A DNA stretch of 21,725 nucleotides, from IMG/VR virus record IMGVR_UViG_3300021962_000749, positions 1 through 21,725 of that record; one strand, 5' to 3'. This DNA comes from a virus. Every line of letters begins with the position of its first letter. Positions within the stretch are counted from its first letter, which is position 1. The translations under genes were made by a program, and so were the position numbers. A model generated the notes under the pieces. It ran no database searches, was not told the DNA's origin, and saw only the letters and a list, made by a program, of their open reading frames with translations. Of the stretch, positions 1,493-19,916 are shown one piece after another.

Positions 1493-2194
1493 TCATTGCT
1501 TTAATAAGGTATTGAATGCTCTTGCAGCCACGACTGGTACTTGCCCATTGCCAATGGCTTTAAGTCTGTCCACCCTAGAGGCCACCACATCAGATGTTCT
1601 GTCCACTCCGGGTTTATCTTTCCCCCAGCGTGTGTAGCTAATGATGGCGTTCTCCTTGTGTATTCCGCTGGGTACGCCCCTTCCTTTGCATTGTGCGCTG
1701 TTGGGGTAGGCAAGTAGGAATAGTCTCGGTCGTACATGCTCCCCTCCAAAGGCAGCAGCATGAAACACTGACCAGACGCAACCATACCCGATCTCGGCAA
1801 GGTCACTGATGACCACGGCAAGTCCTCGTTTAACAAGGAGTTCGCTGTTTTCCACGAATGCGAATCGAGGTCGTACTTCACCGATAATTCGTGCCATGTG
1901 CTTCCACATGCTTGATCTGCTTCCCTCAATTCCGGCTCCCTTTCCTGCTGAACTGATGTCCTGACAGGGAAACCCGCCCGAAACAACATCAACAATTCCG
2001 CGCCACGGTTTGCCGTCAAAGGTTTGAACGTCATCCCAGATCGGGAAAGGCGGGAGAAGGCCGTCATTTTGTCTGGCGGCAAGTACGCAAGCTGGGTATG
2101 GCTCCCACTCAACTGCGCAGACGGTTCTCCATCCAAGCAGCTTGCCCCCAAGTATTCCTCCACCAGCACCTGCGAAAAGAGCCAACTCATTCAA
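1493..2194 (-). CDS. DNA cytosine-5 methyltransferase (compact phage form)
   Basis: Transfers a methyl group from S-adenosylmethionine to carbon 5 of cytosine in DNA, probably to shield phage DNA from host restriction. Motif I is FAGAGGGILGG (residues 7-17, SAM binding). Motif IV is GGFPCQDIS with catalytic C77. Motif VI is VENS (E115; the usual form is ENV). Motif VIII is the RPRLFLLA segment. Motif X is IGNGQVP near residues 214-220. At 233 residues it is short for the family, leaving little room for a target-recognition domain between motifs VIII and X. The start is TTG at 2194 with GGAGG six bases upstream. A 229-codon second frame starting with ATG at 2190 overlaps almost the whole gene. 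The gene lies between 21-bp direct repeats and looks like an inserted cassette. Confidence 0.92.
   Translation of the reverse strand: MNELALFAGAGGGILGGKLLGWRTVCAVEWEPYPACVLAARQNDGLLPPFPIWDDVQTFDGKPWRGIVDVVSGGFPCQDISSAGKGAGIEGSRSSMWKHMARIIGEVRPRFAFVENSELLVKRGLAVVISDLAEIGYGCVWSVFHAAAFGGEHVRPRLFLLAYPNSAQCKGRGVPSGIHKENAIISYTRWGKDKPGVDRTSDVVASRVDRLKAIGNGQVPVVAARAFNTLLKQ
1501..2190 (-). CDS. Overlapping second-frame protein inside the methyltransferase gene
   Basis: A 229-codon open frame lying wholly inside the methyltransferase gene. It begins at an ATG four bases after the TTG of that gene and shares its GGAGG site (10-base spacing). The product starts MSWLFSQVLVEEYL. Later come a YDLDSHSWKT segment, LPRSGM, YLPTPTA, and a C-terminal NPEWTEHLMWWPLGWTDLKPL block. 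From memory these match a recurrent phage/prophage family marked by (W/L)PTPTA and NPxWVEWLMGWPxGWT motifs, often annotated beside or as DNA methyltransferases. That is why I list it rather than treating it as a shadow. It has no catalytic motif I can name. It may be a genuine dual-coded partner, for example a recognition or accessory factor, or a by-product of conservation in the methyltransferase frame. The family resemblance is recalled, not searched. Confidence 0.55.
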   Translation of the reverse strand: MSWLFSQVLVEEYLGASCLDGEPSAQLSGSHTQLAYLPPDKMTAFSRLSRSGMTFKPLTANRGAELLMLFRAGFPVRTSVQQEREPELREADQACGSTWHELSVKYDLDSHSWKTANSLLNEDLPWSSVTLPRSGMVASGQCFMLLPLEGSMYDRDYSYLPTPTAHNAKEGAYPAEYTRRTPSLATHAGGKINPEWTEHLMWWPLGWTDLKPLAMGKYQSWLQEHSIPY

Positions 2195-2200
2195 AATTTA

Positions 2201-2224
2201 CCTCCAATTAATTTTTGTTAATTG
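2201..2224 (-). promoter_or_regulatory. Shine-Dalgarno site and AT-rich hairpin ahead of the methyltransferase
   Basis: GGAGG (2205-2201, minus strand) is one of the strongest ribosome sites of the left arm and serves both the TTG at 2194 and the ATG at 2190. Directly upstream, CAATTAA and TTAATTG (2205-2211 and 2218-2224) form a 7-bp stem with a 6-base loop. The stem slightly overlaps the GGAGG, so folding could limit ribosome access. Confidence 0.55.
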
Positions 2225-2228
2225 CCTG

Positions 2229-2249
2229 ACTCATAACATTTCTGCTCCC
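2229..2249. repeat. 21-bp direct repeat, copy 2 (methyltransferase cassette, upstream side)
   Basis: Identical to 1470-1490. On the minus strand it encodes the last residues of the primase-helicase (GAEML and the TGA). In copy 1 the same bases hold a ribosome site and start codon. Joining across the repeat would leave the helicase end intact and place the Cys-rich gene in ATGA overlap with it. Confidence 0.95.
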
Positions 2250-3838
2250 AGCTCAGTCAATCTGCCGGTGTTTTTATTGTAGTTTAGATGACTGGCAATA
2301 CCAGTATCCCCGATCCATCTGCTTTTCAGGACACGCAAGGTAGTGGTGTTTTTAACGCTCGCATCCTCTGCCTGTGTGTCACGCTCACACGCTATCACAG
2401 CATCAGATAGTTGCGCAATAGAACCGGAGCCTCTTAGCAATGACAATGTGACAGGTGCGCCATTCTCAAGTGGCTTGCCATCGGGCCTCGACAGGTGAGT
2501 GACAATGTGCAAACTGCACCCTGTCTGCTGCACCACTTCTGACCGTAGCCTTGTCATCAACTCATCGATCTTCTGTCTCTCATTTTGTGTTGCCTCACCA
2601 CTCACAACAATGCTGATGTGATCCAGCACCACTATGGAGCAGTCCATAGCCTTGACAAAATACTTCAAACGACTAATAACATTGTCAAGGTCAGTGCTAC
2701 CCCAATGATCCCACAGTGACACCCTGTGTCCTATACCCAGATCATCATAACATTGGTCAATTTCAGAAGGATCATACTCAGTGCCATGCAGGTGTATCGG
2801 CTTGTTCAAGTGAAGCCCAGCCAGACCCCTCAGTGTCCTTTCCGGGGTTTCCTCAAGGAATGCAACACCAACATGGTCAGTAGTATTGAGTAACGTGCTG
2901 TAGACCAGCTCGCGCAATGCTGATGACTTGCCTACGCCACTGCCTGCACACCATGTGACCAGCTCTGCCTCCCTGATGCCTTGCAACATCCTGTCTAAGC
3001 CCCTCCAAGGATAGTGCCAGCGCGGGGGCGGTACTGGTGACTTCAGAGCCTCCCTAAACTGATCAGCAAGCACGATGCCGTCAGGCGTGAACCTGTCAGC
3101 TTTCCACCATGCCGGACTGTACTCTGCTGTCCTTCCGTTCACGTAATAATCACAAGAATCCTTGATCCCTGTCGGGTGCTGCATGATCCTTGCCTTGCCA
3201 CCGAACAGTTGCGCACATTCCGCTGCTGCTTTTCTGCCCGGCTCATCAGAGTCGAAACAAAAGACCAATGTTTCAAACTTGTCGAGCCATTCATACGCAG
3301 CTTTGCAGTCTGCCAGCGCACCCGCAGCACCATTGCGGATACTGACAACGGGATACTTGCTGCCCAGCAACTGATACGCTGCCTGTGCGTCTTCTTCGCC
3401 TTCTGTAATTGTGCAGAACTTCGCAGGGGAGAACAACTGCTGACCGAATAGCCCAGCCTGCTTGACTTCACCGACCCAAGGGAACCTCTTGTCTGGATAA
3501 CGCATCTTTGCTGCAACGATCTTTGTTGGATCGTTTTTGTCAAAATATGCGTAGTAGGTTTTATCCTCTGTTTTCAAGGACTTAAATAGTTTCGCAGTGT
3601 CGGCAGTGATGCCTCTTGCACTGTCCCCAGAGTACCTGCCTGTGATCAACAAGTTCTCAACTGCACTGAACGCTGGCTTCGGTGTCGGCCTCTGAGCCTC
3701 ATCAGGGATTGCTTCGCCCTGAAACAACTGCTGACAGCTAAAGCACCATATGCTGCCATCCTCATTGACTGAAGCAGCATCGGATGACCTGCACCCAGTC
3801 TGATCTGGACATGGTTGATGTGTTCTTTGAAATGTCAT
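2231..3838 (-). CDS. T7 gp4-like bifunctional DNA primase-helicase
   Basis: A 535-residue replisome protein that unwinds DNA as a ring and lays down RNA primers. An N-terminal Cys4 zinc site (C10, C16, C32, C35) is for primase template recognition. The TOPRIM domain has EGEEDA (residues 146-151) and FDSDEPG (195-201). The RecA-like helicase has Walker A GSGVGKSS (299-306), Walker B IVVLDH (402-407), the motif around THLSRP (447-452) and GSGSIAQLSD (470-479). The length matches T7 gp4 (about 566). The frame is open seven codons upstream, but I chose the ATG at 3838. It overlaps the previous stop as ATGA, has GGAGG upstream, and puts the zinc site at the usual distance from the N-terminus. It acts with the polymerase at the left edge. 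Its 3' end carries copy 2 of the 21-bp repeat. Confidence 0.95.
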   Translation of the reverse strand: MTFQRTHQPCPDQTGCRSSDAASVNEDGSIWCFSCQQLFQGEAIPDEAQRPTPKPAFSAVENLLITGRYSGDSARGITADTAKLFKSLKTEDKTYYAYFDKNDPTKIVAAKMRYPDKRFPWVGEVKQAGLFGQQLFSPAKFCTITEGEEDAQAAYQLLGSKYPVVSIRNGAAGALADCKAAYEWLDKFETLVFCFDSDEPGRKAAAECAQLFGGKARIMQHPTGIKDSCDYYVNGRTAEYSPAWWKADRFTPDGIVLADQFREALKSPVPPPRWHYPWRGLDRMLQGIREAELVTWCAGSGVGKSSALRELVYSTLLNTTDHVGVAFLEETPERTLRGLAGLHLNKPIHLHGTEYDPSEIDQCYDDLGIGHRVSLWDHWGSTDLDNVISRLKYFVKAMDCSIVVLDHISIVVSGEATQNERQKIDELMTRLRSEVVQQTGCSLHIVTHLSRPDGKPLENGAPVTLSLLRGSGSIAQLSDAVIACERDTQAEDASVKNTTTLRVLKSRWIGDTGIASHLNYNKNTGRLTELGAEML

Positions 3839-4215
3839 CGGTTCGCTTCCTCCGCGCATTCAAGCAGATGTTCCCCCAATAACTCTCGGATTTTCTCAAG
3901 ATTCTCCACTGGGTTTCGGCCTCTCAACGCATCAGCCAGCAGGCAGTCAACAGCACTGCCATGATTCGTCAACAGTTCCAGTAGGTTGTTGTCGGACAGA
4001 ATATCAGCAGCCACCCAGAAACCATCGGCATACGGGATTCTGTGCGTCCTCCAGCCATCGTCATCAAAAGACTCAGCCACCAGTTCTTGAAGTGCTGCTT
4101 CTGCTTCTTGCCAATTCAGCACCTGCTTTCTGTAGATGTCCTGTAGCGGTTCCGGTTTCATTGACTCTGGCTTGAGAGCCTCGTACAACATCTGTTTGCA
4201 ATCTATCTTTTCCAT
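3835..4215 (-). CDS. Hypothetical protein, 126 residues, acidic
   Basis: Opens MEKIDCKQMLYEALKPES and is acidic and helix-rich, ending in a Leu/Glu-rich segment (LEKIRELLGEHLLECAEEAN). No catalytic motif, membrane segment or signal peptide is visible, and I do not recognise it. It lies between an HTH-like gene (13-base overlap at its start) and the primase-helicase (ATGA overlap at its end), so it is co-translated with the replication genes. Its end supplies the Shine-Dalgarno site for the helicase. A replication accessory role is possible from position alone. Confidence 0.75.
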   Translation of the reverse strand: MEKIDCKQMLYEALKPESMKPEPLQDIYRKQVLNWQEAEAALQELVAESFDDDGWRTHRIPYADGFWVAADILSDNNLLELLTNHGSAVDCLLADALRGRNPVENLEKIRELLGEHLLECAEEANR

Positions 4216-16296: not shown

Positions 16297-17982
16297 ATGA
16301 CAACCAAAATCATCACCAAGAACAGTTCTACTGCTTCTGCTGTTCCCTCATCAGCCAATCTTGAGCAGGGTGAATTGGCTGTCAATGTTACTGACAAACG
16401 CCTTTTTACAGAGAATGCTTCTGGCACTGTTGTAGAGTTGGGGACTAATCCGACCTCACTGACAGTTGGTAATATTACATCATCAGGCACATACACTGGT
16501 ATTGTGTCATCAAGCAATGCCACTATTACTGGTGGATCTGTCAATAACACACCTATTGGTGGTACTACTCCCAGCACTATTGTAGGAACCAATATCACTG
16601 CCAACACTGGTTTTACTGGTGCTTTGACAGGCAATGTAACTGGTAACGTCACTGGCAACTTAACAGGAAACGTAACTGGAAATGTCACAGGTAATGTTAC
16701 TGGTAATGTCACTGCTTCTAGTGGCACTACAACTCTTAACAATCTTATTATTAATGGTACTACTGATTTTAATGGGGCTATCCTCACTGATCTGGGGACT
16801 CCTTCAGCGTCCTCTGACGCAGCCACTAAAGGCTATGTTGATACCCAAATCACCAGCTTAGTAGCCTCTGCTCCTGCTGCACTAGACACACTTAATGAAC
16901 TAGCTGCTGCCTTGGGCGATGATGCTAACTTTTCTACTACTATTACTAACTCTATAGCTACTAAACTTCCCCTAGCAGGCGGCACTATGACTGGTGCTAT
17001 AGCTATGGGTGGTAATAATATTACTGGTCTTGGCACTCCTACACTTAGCAACGATGCTACCAGCAAGACCTATGTAGACACTCAAGACGCACTGAAGCTC
17101 TCCCTGACTGGTGGTACTATGTCAGGCAACATAGCTATGGGCAGCAACAGCGTCACAGGGCTTGCAGCTCCTTCTGCGGGTGGCGATGCAGCTAATAAAA
17201 CATATGTTGATTCTATCCTTGGTTCTGCTACAGACGCAGCAACCTCAGCAGCCGCAGCAGCAGCCTCCGCAAGTGCAGCCAGTACGTCTGCCTCTAATGC
17301 CTCCACTTCAGCAACTAATGCAGCTTCTAGCGCATCTAGTGCATCCTCAAGTGCAGCAGCCGCTGCTACTAGCTACGATAACTTTGATGACCGTTATTTG
17401 GGACAGAAAAGTTCTGCTCCTTCTACAGACAATGACGGAGATGCCCTGCTGACAGGTGCTTTGTACTTTGATACTACTGCTAATAAGATGCAAGTTTACA
17501 GCGGGAGTGCTTGGGTAGATGTAGCTCCTACTGCTACTAGCGTAACTGTTAGCCAGATTAGTGATCTTACAGCAACCGCTGCTGAAATAAATGTTTTAGA
17601 CGGCATTACTGCCACAACTACAGAGCTGAACTTGTTAGATGGCATTACTGCTCTGGTTACAGCTTCTAGCACTGACACGTTCACGAACAAGACCGTCAGA
17701 GACACTGTGTACGCTCTGTCTGGCACAGCCTTTGACGCTACCAACGGTGCAGTGCAGACCAAGACCCTATCTGGTAACACCACCTTCACAGACTCACTAA
17801 GCTCTGGTGATGCCATTGTGTTGATGCTAGAGGCTGGTGCCAGCTACACGGTGACCTACCCGACCATGACTTGGGTGACCAGCGCAGGCAATGTTGCTCC
17901 TACGCTGACTGCGAAGGACACACTGGTGTTTTGGAAAGTCTCCACAACTCTCTACGGTGCTTACACAGGAAGCTATGTGTAA
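16297..17982 (+). CDS. Tail fibre protein with repeat and Ala/Ser-rich segments
   Basis: 561 residues, probably a trimeric host-contact fibre. It opens MTTKIITKNSSTASAVPSS with LEQGELAVNVTDKRLF, a common N-terminus of phage fibre proteins. After that come seven TGNV-type tetrapeptides (residues about 111-138) and repeats of the type DAATKGYVDTQ and LAGGTMTGAIAMGGNNITGL. A long Ala/Ser stretch follows (around 310-360), then YFDTTANKMQVYSGSAWVDV, the twin AEINVLDGIT / TELNLLDGIT repeats, and a beta-rich C-terminus. GAG lies before the ATG at moderate strength. TAATG overlap joins it to the spike gene. A 201-codon antisense frame here is an artefact of repeat composition. Confidence 0.9.
   Translation: MTTKIITKNSSTASAVPSSANLEQGELAVNVTDKRLFTENASGTVVELGTNPTSLTVGNITSSGTYTGIVSSSNATITGGSVNNTPIGGTTPSTIVGTNITANTGFTGALTGNVTGNVTGNLTGNVTGNVTGNVTGNVTASSGTTTLNNLIINGTTDFNGAILTDLGTPSASSDAATKGYVDTQITSLVASAPAALDTLNELAAALGDDANFSTTITNSIATKLPLAGGTMTGAIAMGGNNITGLGTPTLSNDATSKTYVDTQDALKLSLTGGTMSGNIAMGSNSVTGLAAPSAGGDAANKTYVDSILGSATDAATSAAAAAASASAASTSASNASTSATNAASSASSASSSAAAAATSYDNFDDRYLGQKSSAPSTDNDGDALLTGALYFDTTANKMQVYSGSAWVDVAPTATSVTVSQISDLTATAAEINVLDGITATTTELNLLDGITALVTASSTDTFTNKTVRDTVYALSGTAFDATNGAVQTKTLSGNTTFTDSLSSGDAIVLMLEAGASYTVTYPTMTWVTSAGNVAPTLTAKDTLVFWKVSTTLYGAYTGSYV
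16627..16710 (+). repeat. Seven 12-bp units coding TGNV repeats
   Basis: Seven tandem 12-bp units encode T-G-N-V (the third unit is T-G-N-L). Every unit has a different nucleotide sequence, mostly through third-position changes, so the protein repeat is kept while the DNA repeat is eroded. Confidence 0.9.
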
Positions 17983-19916
17983 TGAGCAAATTAGCTAAAG
18001 CTCTGACAGCAGCGGCAGGTAATGCAGGTGAGTCTCTGTACGTTGAGGATGTATTCTCGACTTATTTGTATACGGGTAATAGTTCTACGCAGACCATCAC
18101 CAACGGGATTGATCTGGCTGGTGAAGGCGGGTTGGTTTGGAGGCAAGGAAGGTCTGCCGCTACAGGTGGGCAACTGATTGATACCGCAAGAGGAATAGGC
18201 AGTTATCTTATTTCCTATTCTACGGATGCGGCACAGACAGGTTCTAACTGGATAGATTCGTTTAATTCAAACGGCTTCACCATGAACATTAATTCGTTTA
18301 ATGGTGGCGCAACCTACGCCTCGTGGACATTCCGCAAGGCTGAGAAGTTCTTTGATGTTTTGACTTATACTGGGAATGGTGTTGCGGGAAGGACTGTGGC
18401 GCATAATCTTGGTAGTACACCTGCGGTGATGATAATAAAAAGAACAAGCACTTCAGGATCAAACTGGCGTGTCTACCACACTTCTTTAGGTAATGGGCAA
18501 GCATTATCGTTAAACACGACCGATGCAGCAGGAGCTACTACTAGCTTATGGAATAGTACAACGCCAACTGACTCAGTATTTACTCTTGGCGATAACGGTA
18601 ACGTCAATCAATCGGGTGAATCTTTTGTAGCCTACCTATTCGCCTCAGACGCAGGAGGCTTTGGCGATGACGGCACGGAGAATATTATTTCGTGTGGGTC
18701 GTTTACGACTGATGGCAGCGGTAGCGCCACGGTCAGTCTTGGGTATGAGCCGCAATGGGTAATGATTAAACGATCCGATGCTGCCGACGACTGGATAATG
18801 CTAGACGCCATGCGCGGGATGTCATATAGCAACTGCCTAAAGTTGGCGGCAAACGCATCATCTGCTGAATACAACTTTGGGGCAAACCAAACCTATCCAA
18901 CCGCCACTGGATTCAGTATTAACGGCACCTTGTCTGCAAGCGGCACCTACATCTACATCGCCATCCGCCGTGGCCCGATGAAAGTGCCTACAGCAGGGAC
19001 TGAGGTGTTTAGTCCTGTTTCAAGAGCGGGGACAAGCGCGGTAGCATCTGTCACTACGCCAAATTTCCCACCTGATTTGGTGATCATTAAAAATCAAACA
19101 GCAGGAATTGCAGGACGAGTGAGAACAAAGTTAACTGGCCCAAATGTTAGACTTGTTACATCAAGCACTGATGTAGAGGTTCCTGATAGCGATGAATTCC
19201 GCTCTTTTGACCAGCTAGGTTATACATTTGGGGCTAATTCAGCAAGCGACTTTGGAACGCAAAATTATAGCGGTTATACATATATTAATTGGGCCTTCAA
19301 GCGCGCCACAGGCTTTTTTGATGCGGTAGCTTATACTGGGACTGGAAGCAATACATCAATAAATCATAATCTTGGCGTTGCACCAGAATTAATGATTGTC
19401 AAAAGAAGAAATAGCTCAAGAGTATGGGCTGTTTGGGCAAGCGGCATAGATATAGACGATTATTTAACACTAAATGGAAGTGCGGGTGTAGCTACCTTTT
19501 CTTTATGGCAAAGCACGTTGCCAACAGCAACGCAAATTACATTAGGAACAGACGCAAGTGTAAATGGTTCTGGCGACACCTACATAGGCTACCTATTCGC
19601 CACCTGCCCCGGAGTAAGCAAAGTAGGTAGCTACACAGGTAATGGTACAAGCCAAACGATTGACTGTGGATTTAGTGGTGGGGCGAGATTTATTTTAATT
19701 AAGTCTACAAGCACTACAGGTTCATGGTGGGTATATGATTCTGCGCGTGGTATTGTTGCAGGTAATGATCCTGCTCTACAGCTAAACTCTACAGCCGCAG
19801 AAATAACAAGCGCTGATGCTATAGACCCAGATAGCAGTGGATTTATTGTTAATCAAGAAGCTACTTGTTCTATTAATGCTAGTGGAGTTTCTTATATCTT
19901 TATGAGTATTGCCTGA
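17982..19916 (+). CDS. Tail spike-like protein with DUF7483-type repeats
   Basis: 644 residues starting MSKLAKALTAAAGNAGESLY, followed by VEDVFSTYLYTGNSSTQTIT. The body is made of tandem domains with a shared plan: FFDxxxYTGxG, a HNLGxxPxxMIxKR strand, a Trp-containing segment, LWxSTxPTxxxxTLGxxxxVNxSGxxxxxYLFA. One copy begins near residue 122 and another near 445, with a third partial copy after KVGSYTGNGTSQTID. I recall this as the DUF7483 repeat of marine phage virion proteins, probably a beta-sandwich sugar-binding or fibre domain. The ATG at 17982 overlaps the fibre stop (TAATG). Base composition becomes visibly more AT-rich from about 19020 to the end. TGATG leads into the homing-endonuclease-like gene. 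Confidence 0.82.
   Translation: MSKLAKALTAAAGNAGESLYVEDVFSTYLYTGNSSTQTITNGIDLAGEGGLVWRQGRSAATGGQLIDTARGIGSYLISYSTDAAQTGSNWIDSFNSNGFTMNINSFNGGATYASWTFRKAEKFFDVLTYTGNGVAGRTVAHNLGSTPAVMIIKRTSTSGSNWRVYHTSLGNGQALSLNTTDAAGATTSLWNSTTPTDSVFTLGDNGNVNQSGESFVAYLFASDAGGFGDDGTENIISCGSFTTDGSGSATVSLGYEPQWVMIKRSDAADDWIMLDAMRGMSYSNCLKLAANASSAEYNFGANQTYPTATGFSINGTLSASGTYIYIAIRRGPMKVPTAGTEVFSPVSRAGTSAVASVTTPNFPPDLVIIKNQTAGIAGRVRTKLTGPNVRLVTSSTDVEVPDSDEFRSFDQLGYTFGANSASDFGTQNYSGYTYINWAFKRATGFFDAVAYTGTGSNTSINHNLGVAPELMIVKRRNSSRVWAVWASGIDIDDYLTLNGSAGVATFSLWQSTLPTATQITLGTDASVNGSGDTYIGYLFATCPGVSKVGSYTGNGTSQTIDCGFSGGARFILIKSTSTTGSWWVYDSARGIVAGNDPALQLNSTAAEITSADAIDPDSSGFIVNQEATCSINASGVSYIFMSIA

Follow-up and report, generated by a model that had tools for sequence, protein, structure and literature searches.

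The DNA analysed here (the window) is a 21.7-kb virus fragment, positions 1 to 21,725 of IMG/VR record IMGVR_UViG_3300021962_000749. It very probably encodes a split, two-subunit cytosine-5 methyltransferase in the manner of M.EcoHK31I, with the two subunits encoded by one stretch of DNA in different frames. We refer to these frames as alpha (F1) and beta (F2). Both are located on the same strand within positions 1493-2194, beta being the +1 frame of alpha. The start of beta lies 4 nt inside alpha and its end 8 nt short of the end of alpha, so that beta spans 98% of alpha's length. These coordinates confirmed the initial annotation, which had described two frames of 233 and 229 codons starting at TTG 2194 and ATG 2190 and served by one GGAGG. 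All features of the locus are compiled in Table 1.

Table 1. Features of the alpha/beta locus, given as positions in the window.
Feature	Positions	Strand	Evidence or remark
Shine-Dalgarno GGAGG	2201..2205	-	sequence; 6 nt to TTG 2194, 10 nt to ATG 2190; common to both starts
Alpha, m5C methyltransferase catalytic subunit, 233 aa, TTG start	1493..2194	-	ORF, PF00145, phmmer
Alpha motif I, LFAGAGGG	2156..2179	-	
Alpha motif IV, GGFPCQDIS, containing the catalytic Cys	1952..1978	-	GFPC invariant in 61 relatives
Alpha motif VI, FVENSELL	1835..1858	-	
Alpha motif VIII, GGEHVRPRLFLLAY	1706..1747	-	
Alpha motif X, RVDRLKAIGNGQVPVVAARAF	1514..1576	-	in 12 loci found in the chain of beta instead
Beta, +1-frame partner, 229 aa, ATG start	1501..2190	-	ORF, stop avoidance, excess conservation, fourfold constraint, PHROG_1008
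Beta N-terminal part, residues 1 to ~77, over alpha motifs I-IV	1960..2190	-	excess conservation
Beta YDLDSHSWKT	1846..1875	-	
Beta LPRSGMVASG	1771..1800	-	P132 and G135 conserved far above alpha-imposed expectation
Beta PTP motif YLPTPTA, start of the variable region	1696..1716	-	proposed target recognition
Beta motif-IX-like block, GGKINPEWTEHLMWWPLGWTDL	1561..1626	-	DNA overlaps alpha motif X

The gene set of the fragment is podovirus-like and comprises primase/helicase, terminase, portal/head-tail adaptor, major head protein, and tail fibre. The overlapping pair is flanked on the minus strand by the primase/helicase gene (2231-3859) on one side and a small ORF (1299-1496) on the other. At positions 1493-1496, the TGA of alpha shares the sequence ATGA with the ATG of the small ORF, which suggests translational coupling. 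Another same-strand overlap, 112 nt in length (17871-17982), was observed between the tail fibre ORF 16297-17982 and ORF 17871-19916. The latter encodes a tail fibre/virion protein, and its true start may be located further inside.

An in-frame TAA precedes the TTG of alpha by two codons, and the frame lacks an early ATG. It matched PF00145 with an E-value of 3.8e-30, covering only profile positions 5-178 of 324, and in the comparison with M.HhaI it covered residues 15-178 of 327 (phmmer, 5.8e-13). The elements that define the PF00145 catalytic domain, namely motifs I, IV with its PC, VI, and VIII, are all present. Overall, alpha carries motifs I-VIII and the motif X of a C5 methyltransferase chain, RVDRLKAIGNGQVP. 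The initial annotation had singled out ENS in place of ENV as a notable deviation. This is not a sign of decay, as E115, N116, and S117 are invariant across 61 relatives; ENS is thus the norm of this family. The further remark that the methyltransferase is short, with little space for target recognition, was borne out. Only ~43 residues separate the end of motif VIII (residue 163) from the start of motif X (residue 207), which leaves no room for a recognition domain. Identity among relatives drops to 0.15-0.26 over codons 161-190, and the linker preceding motif X is unconserved. Since the recognition domain and motif IX are not in this chain, alpha alone is incomplete as a monomeric enzyme.

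The initial annotation had also considered that frame two might be a widespread mis-annotation that tracks the conservation of frame one, that is, an untranslated frame mirroring only the protein sequence and codon bias of alpha. The underlying likeness is real: codon-shuffled versions of the window's alpha average ~180 bits with the beta profile, and the match of one monomer, IPP14, is a pure shadow (27 bits at a null maximum of 28). Plain similarity to beta was therefore rejected as insufficient evidence. Because a conserved alpha alone yields beta-like sequence, our claims rest on the excess over a shuffle null. The real beta scored 432 bits, well above the shuffle maximum of 234. Identity to the window's beta was 0.50 versus 0.30 after codon shuffling, and it exceeded every shuffle in 128 of 128 comparisons.

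Relatives were gathered twice, through beta and through alpha blind to beta, and the two collections partly overlap. The search through beta returned 474 IMG/VR stretches encoding a relative. As the relatives are not independent, the counts of loci given here are not counts of events. In all 80 alpha-selected loci, including those with insertions of up to ~170 nt, beta contained no internal stop up to a few codons from the end of alpha. We calculated the expectation for 133 homologues by resampling synonymous codons while preserving the alpha protein. The beta frame should then contain 5.95 stops per gene if alpha's codon usage is applied and 8.5 if the usage is taken from neighbouring genes, and the probability of zero stops was ~0.002 or less per gene. 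There are 37 point changes, all synonymous in alpha, that would introduce a stop into beta. The remaining frame had 14.8 stops on average and was stop-free in none of the 133 genes. An ATG was kept at the start of beta in 116 of the 133.

Constraint on the second frame was also visible at sites that are silent in alpha. For this purpose, we compared pairs of loci sharing a neighbouring gene, with the neighbour as control; flanking genes were used instead of the helicase gene, because the latter has only five relatives. Fourfold-degenerate sites differed by 0.27 in alpha versus 0.60 in the neighbour. The value was lower for alpha in 126 of 128 pairs, and in 28 of 28 when protein identity was matched. 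At an alpha identity of 0.6-0.7, third positions differed by 0.42, versus 0.58 in control genes. The excess conservation is spread along beta: residues 40-60 reached 0.76-0.78 at an expectation of 0.38-0.47, and over residues 201-210 beta was conserved at 0.82, with 0.33 for the null and 0.69 for alpha.

The codon periodicity changes along the locus. Over codons 1-163 of alpha, most variation occurs at alpha's third position. Over codons 164-212 the pattern flips, and the most variable position is the first of alpha, which is the third of beta. Variation at alpha positions 1, 2, and 3 was 0.456, 0.297, and 0.284 for codons 191-200, and 0.241, 0.120, and 0.106 for codons 201-212. Over motif X (codons 213-228), alpha's periodicity is dominant again. 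Thus, the same DNA serves first the catalytic motifs of alpha, then the PTP region and IX block of beta, and finally motif X of alpha. Purifying selection was accordingly detected on both frames of this same-strand pair. Frequent stops or neutral change in frame two, which the initial annotation had named as evidence against a second gene, were not observed among the relatives. On these substitution patterns, beta is a real coding sequence and not a shadow of alpha. The mis-annotation reading, already contradicted by the open frames, the suppressed fourfold sites, the turn in periodicity, and related segments in genes with little overlap or in frame in monomers (see below), is extremely unlikely.

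Proteins of the beta type range from 227 to 380 aa and differ mainly in the PTP-rich variable region, which is short in the window's beta. No Pfam family matched beta, and Pfam gave nothing relevant even on beta chains containing motif X. Beta matched PHROGs 1008, 26627, and 35493. PHROG_1008, annotated as 'DNA methyltransferase', aligned with the window's beta at 3.4e-16 over positions 18-147 and 259-281. Motif X of the window's alpha matches positions 289-320 of the same profile, which represents one chain, whereas the window uses two frames. A profile search of beta against PDB sequences returned no match. The AlphaFold model of beta alone had a pLDDT of 57 and a pTM of 0.26, and no PDB match was found for it. 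A poor fold of lone beta is consistent with, but does not prove, an obligate partner.

Natural rearrangements of the locus support the reading that beta is the missing C-terminal part of the enzyme. Automatic sorting assigned 259 loci to the layout with motif IX in beta and motif X in alpha, 12 to a layout with both in beta, and seven to single chains. In L006, L250, L253, and L258, alpha stops after motif VIII and the beta-frame chain extends from the IX block to GNGQVP (motif X). The initial annotation had asked whether frame two also occurs as a separate gene, and homologues with little overlap were found as annotated genes in actinophages. The second genes of the pairs in mycobacteriophages Yecey3 (gp86/85, overlap 101 nt) and Ryadel (gp8/7, 209 nt) and in Gordonia phage Float294 (gp62/61, 14 nt) matched the beta profile at 4e-18, 1e-22, and 8e-20, respectively. 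They carry motifs IX and X, and both products of each pair are annotated as DNA methyltransferase or methylase. In single-chain monomers such as L299 and Aggie gp53 (L267), all parts are joined. L299 has the order alpha, PTP repeats, GGQLNADWVEALMGYPQGWTDL, and then RIKRLKGLGNAVVP (motif X); its main-frame segment matched the PTP-IX part of beta at 5e-16. The L299 model aligned end to end with M.HhaI (Z 24.1, 213 residues, 2.4 A), with low confidence in the PTP region.

These variants favour the suggestion of the initial annotation that the dual-coded partner is a recognition factor, since natural chains exist in which the beta segment is joined to motif X or to the entire enzyme. Beta could instead be translated as a separate accessory, for example an anti-restriction or other DNA-binding factor, that is not a structural part of the methyltransferase. 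The N-terminal 77 residues of beta, conserved without a methyltransferase counterpart, and the lack of a Pfam family would fit such a protein. It would, however, leave alpha without motif IX and a recognition domain, and it does not account for the PTP-IX segment being joined to motif X or, in L299, to the whole enzyme. Moreover, in bacterial-genome loci found through beta, an alpha-type sequence overlaps in 80 of 80, with some frames broken or truncated. We therefore regard a separate accessory as unlikely and favour beta as the second subunit.

The arrangements above place motif IX in the partner chain, and its motif-IX-like block was also compared by profile. When an IX-X profile was run against the whole PDB sequence set, the best matches were mostly to DRM/DRM2, which are cytosine-5 methyltransferases, and both motifs aligned in register. 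Their individual E-values of 0.2-1.1 are not significant, and the matches thus support, but do not prove, the identity of motif IX. A comparison restricted to the IX-X profiles (hhalign) gave an E-value of 0.0066 at 6% probability, which is likewise not significant. The profile of beta chains containing motif X aligned over 16 columns located exactly at motif IX, with an E-value of 0.1. Direct comparison of the beta profile with Firmicute/Mycoplasma-type monomers gave no usable signal.

A single fused chain could also arise by ribosomal frameshifting, with translation starting in alpha and slipping into the beta frame after motif VIII. Monomers do exist, and for the 12 loci whose beta frame contains both IX and X, a single slip would complete the enzyme. 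In the window, such a slip would lose motif X, because this motif stays in alpha's frame. A slip product would need neither beta's own ATG nor the constraint observed on residues 1-75, and an unsystematic look noted no obvious slippery site. Frameshifting is hence very unlikely, and two separate subunits remain the preferred reading.

For the two-subunit enzyme, we infer translation of both frames, complex formation, a DNA target, and a biological role along the following lines. Neighbouring starts on one ribosome-binding site would allow alpha and beta to be made side by side. Alpha would contribute SAM binding and catalysis through motifs I-VIII, followed by the unconserved linker and its C-terminal motif X. 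Beta would contribute the PTP-rich variable region, as the proposed target-recognition domain, and motif IX. Together, they would form a complex equivalent to a single M.HhaI-like enzyme. The assembled enzyme would methylate phage DNA, presumably against host restriction; escape from restriction is the usual purpose of such methylation.

The two-polypeptide principle of m5C methyltransferases is known. In M.EcoHK31I, the small polypeptide is encoded within the gene of the large one, in an alternative frame. The window resembles this enzyme in its large chain with motifs I-VIII and X and its small chain with motif IX. According to PMC3404938 (citing Lee et al. 1995), M.EcoHK31I, which recognizes YGGCCR, consists of two polypeptides, the larger with motifs I-VIII and X and the smaller with IX, and the large subunit is reported to hold the predicted recognition domain. 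Unlike M.EcoHK31I as described there, the window's alpha offers no space for such a domain, the variable region is under beta periodicity, and the recognition part appears to be located in beta. Beta also differs from that description by starting 4 nt after alpha, by its 98% cover, and by its conserved N-terminal part over motifs I-IV.

M.AquI (CYCGRG) is a naturally split m5C methyltransferase whose small subunit comprises the distal variable region, IX, and X (PMC3404938). The small chain of the window likewise combines a variable region with motif IX, but motif X is in alpha; the M.AquI layout is met in the 12 relatives that include L006, L250, L253, L258, and the actinophage pairs. Enzyme halves complement well when the chain is divided, artificially or in nature, between motif VIII and the recognition domain (PMC3404938, PMC5944983), and the known split enzymes support the two-subunit reading. 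The pairs of Yecey3, Ryadel, and Float294 share with the window the distribution of a catalytic half and a PTP-IX half over two genes. They differ from it in their short overlap, in having X in the second gene, and in lacking a counterpart of beta residues 1 to ~77 over the catalytic core. Compared with M.HhaI and M.HaeIII, the catalytic domain and the motif order are alike, but those enzymes are single chains in one frame.

Hundreds of phage contigs, as well as prophage-like loci, retain the pair, and the constraint can therefore be measured residue by residue. The pair also occurs in bacterial contigs; the 80 loci retrieved are mostly from Pseudomonas, Acinetobacter, and other proteobacteria, with one archaeal bin. 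Most annotations of related phages give one of the two frames. Salmonella phage S9-5 is annotated with alpha only, whereas beta alone is annotated in Pseudomonas phage VB_PaD_phPA-G, as 'hypothetical protein', and in Stenotrophomonas phage SOVA965, as 'DNA-cytosine methyltransferase'. The phage records MW722521 (L162), PP083311 (L163), and PP079418 (L167) show these three patterns of annotation for the same locus type. Annotation rules against overlaps thus hide half an enzyme, and a methyltransferase cloned from the annotated frame alone might lack activity where recoding alters the other frame.

Near-complete same-strand overlaps of two conserved domains are rare, and cases in which both products are parts of one enzyme are rarer. 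The literature searched yielded no account of such a phage pair, which is not proof of absence. Apparently undescribed in that literature are the near-complete nesting, the conserved N-terminus with which beta covers the catalytic core, and the occurrence of the pair across hundreds of phages. The chances appear evenly balanced that the locus represents a large, mostly mis-annotated phage class of obligate two-subunit methyltransferases encoded by nearly fully overlaid genes, in which the N-terminal part of beta arose de novo by overprinting, motif X moved between frames, and single chains were re-formed from the split state.

Four monomers (L299, L276, L277, and L267, the latter being Aggie gp53) contain a beta-like +1-frame segment over motifs VI-VIII, while their main frame has IX and X. 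In L299, this segment ends with PRAGMMRNGKLYQL. The segments scored 49, 60, 40, and 74 bits, respectively, versus shuffle maxima of 30, 29, 20, and 36. Such remnants may be fossils of an earlier split state, and their scores above shadow expectation hint at a return from split genes to a single chain in some monomers.

Frame shifts close to codon 83-89 exchange the two frames in L240 and, around 900-955, in L281 and L282, and the resulting ORFs combine the start of beta with the end of alpha, or the reverse. In L194, L204, L205, L206, and L236, a stop interrupts alpha while beta is open; these loci were selected through beta and are thus biased. A second beta-/alpha-like copy on the opposite strand of L110 (650-1807, minus) is probably an inverted repeat produced by assembly and was not considered further.
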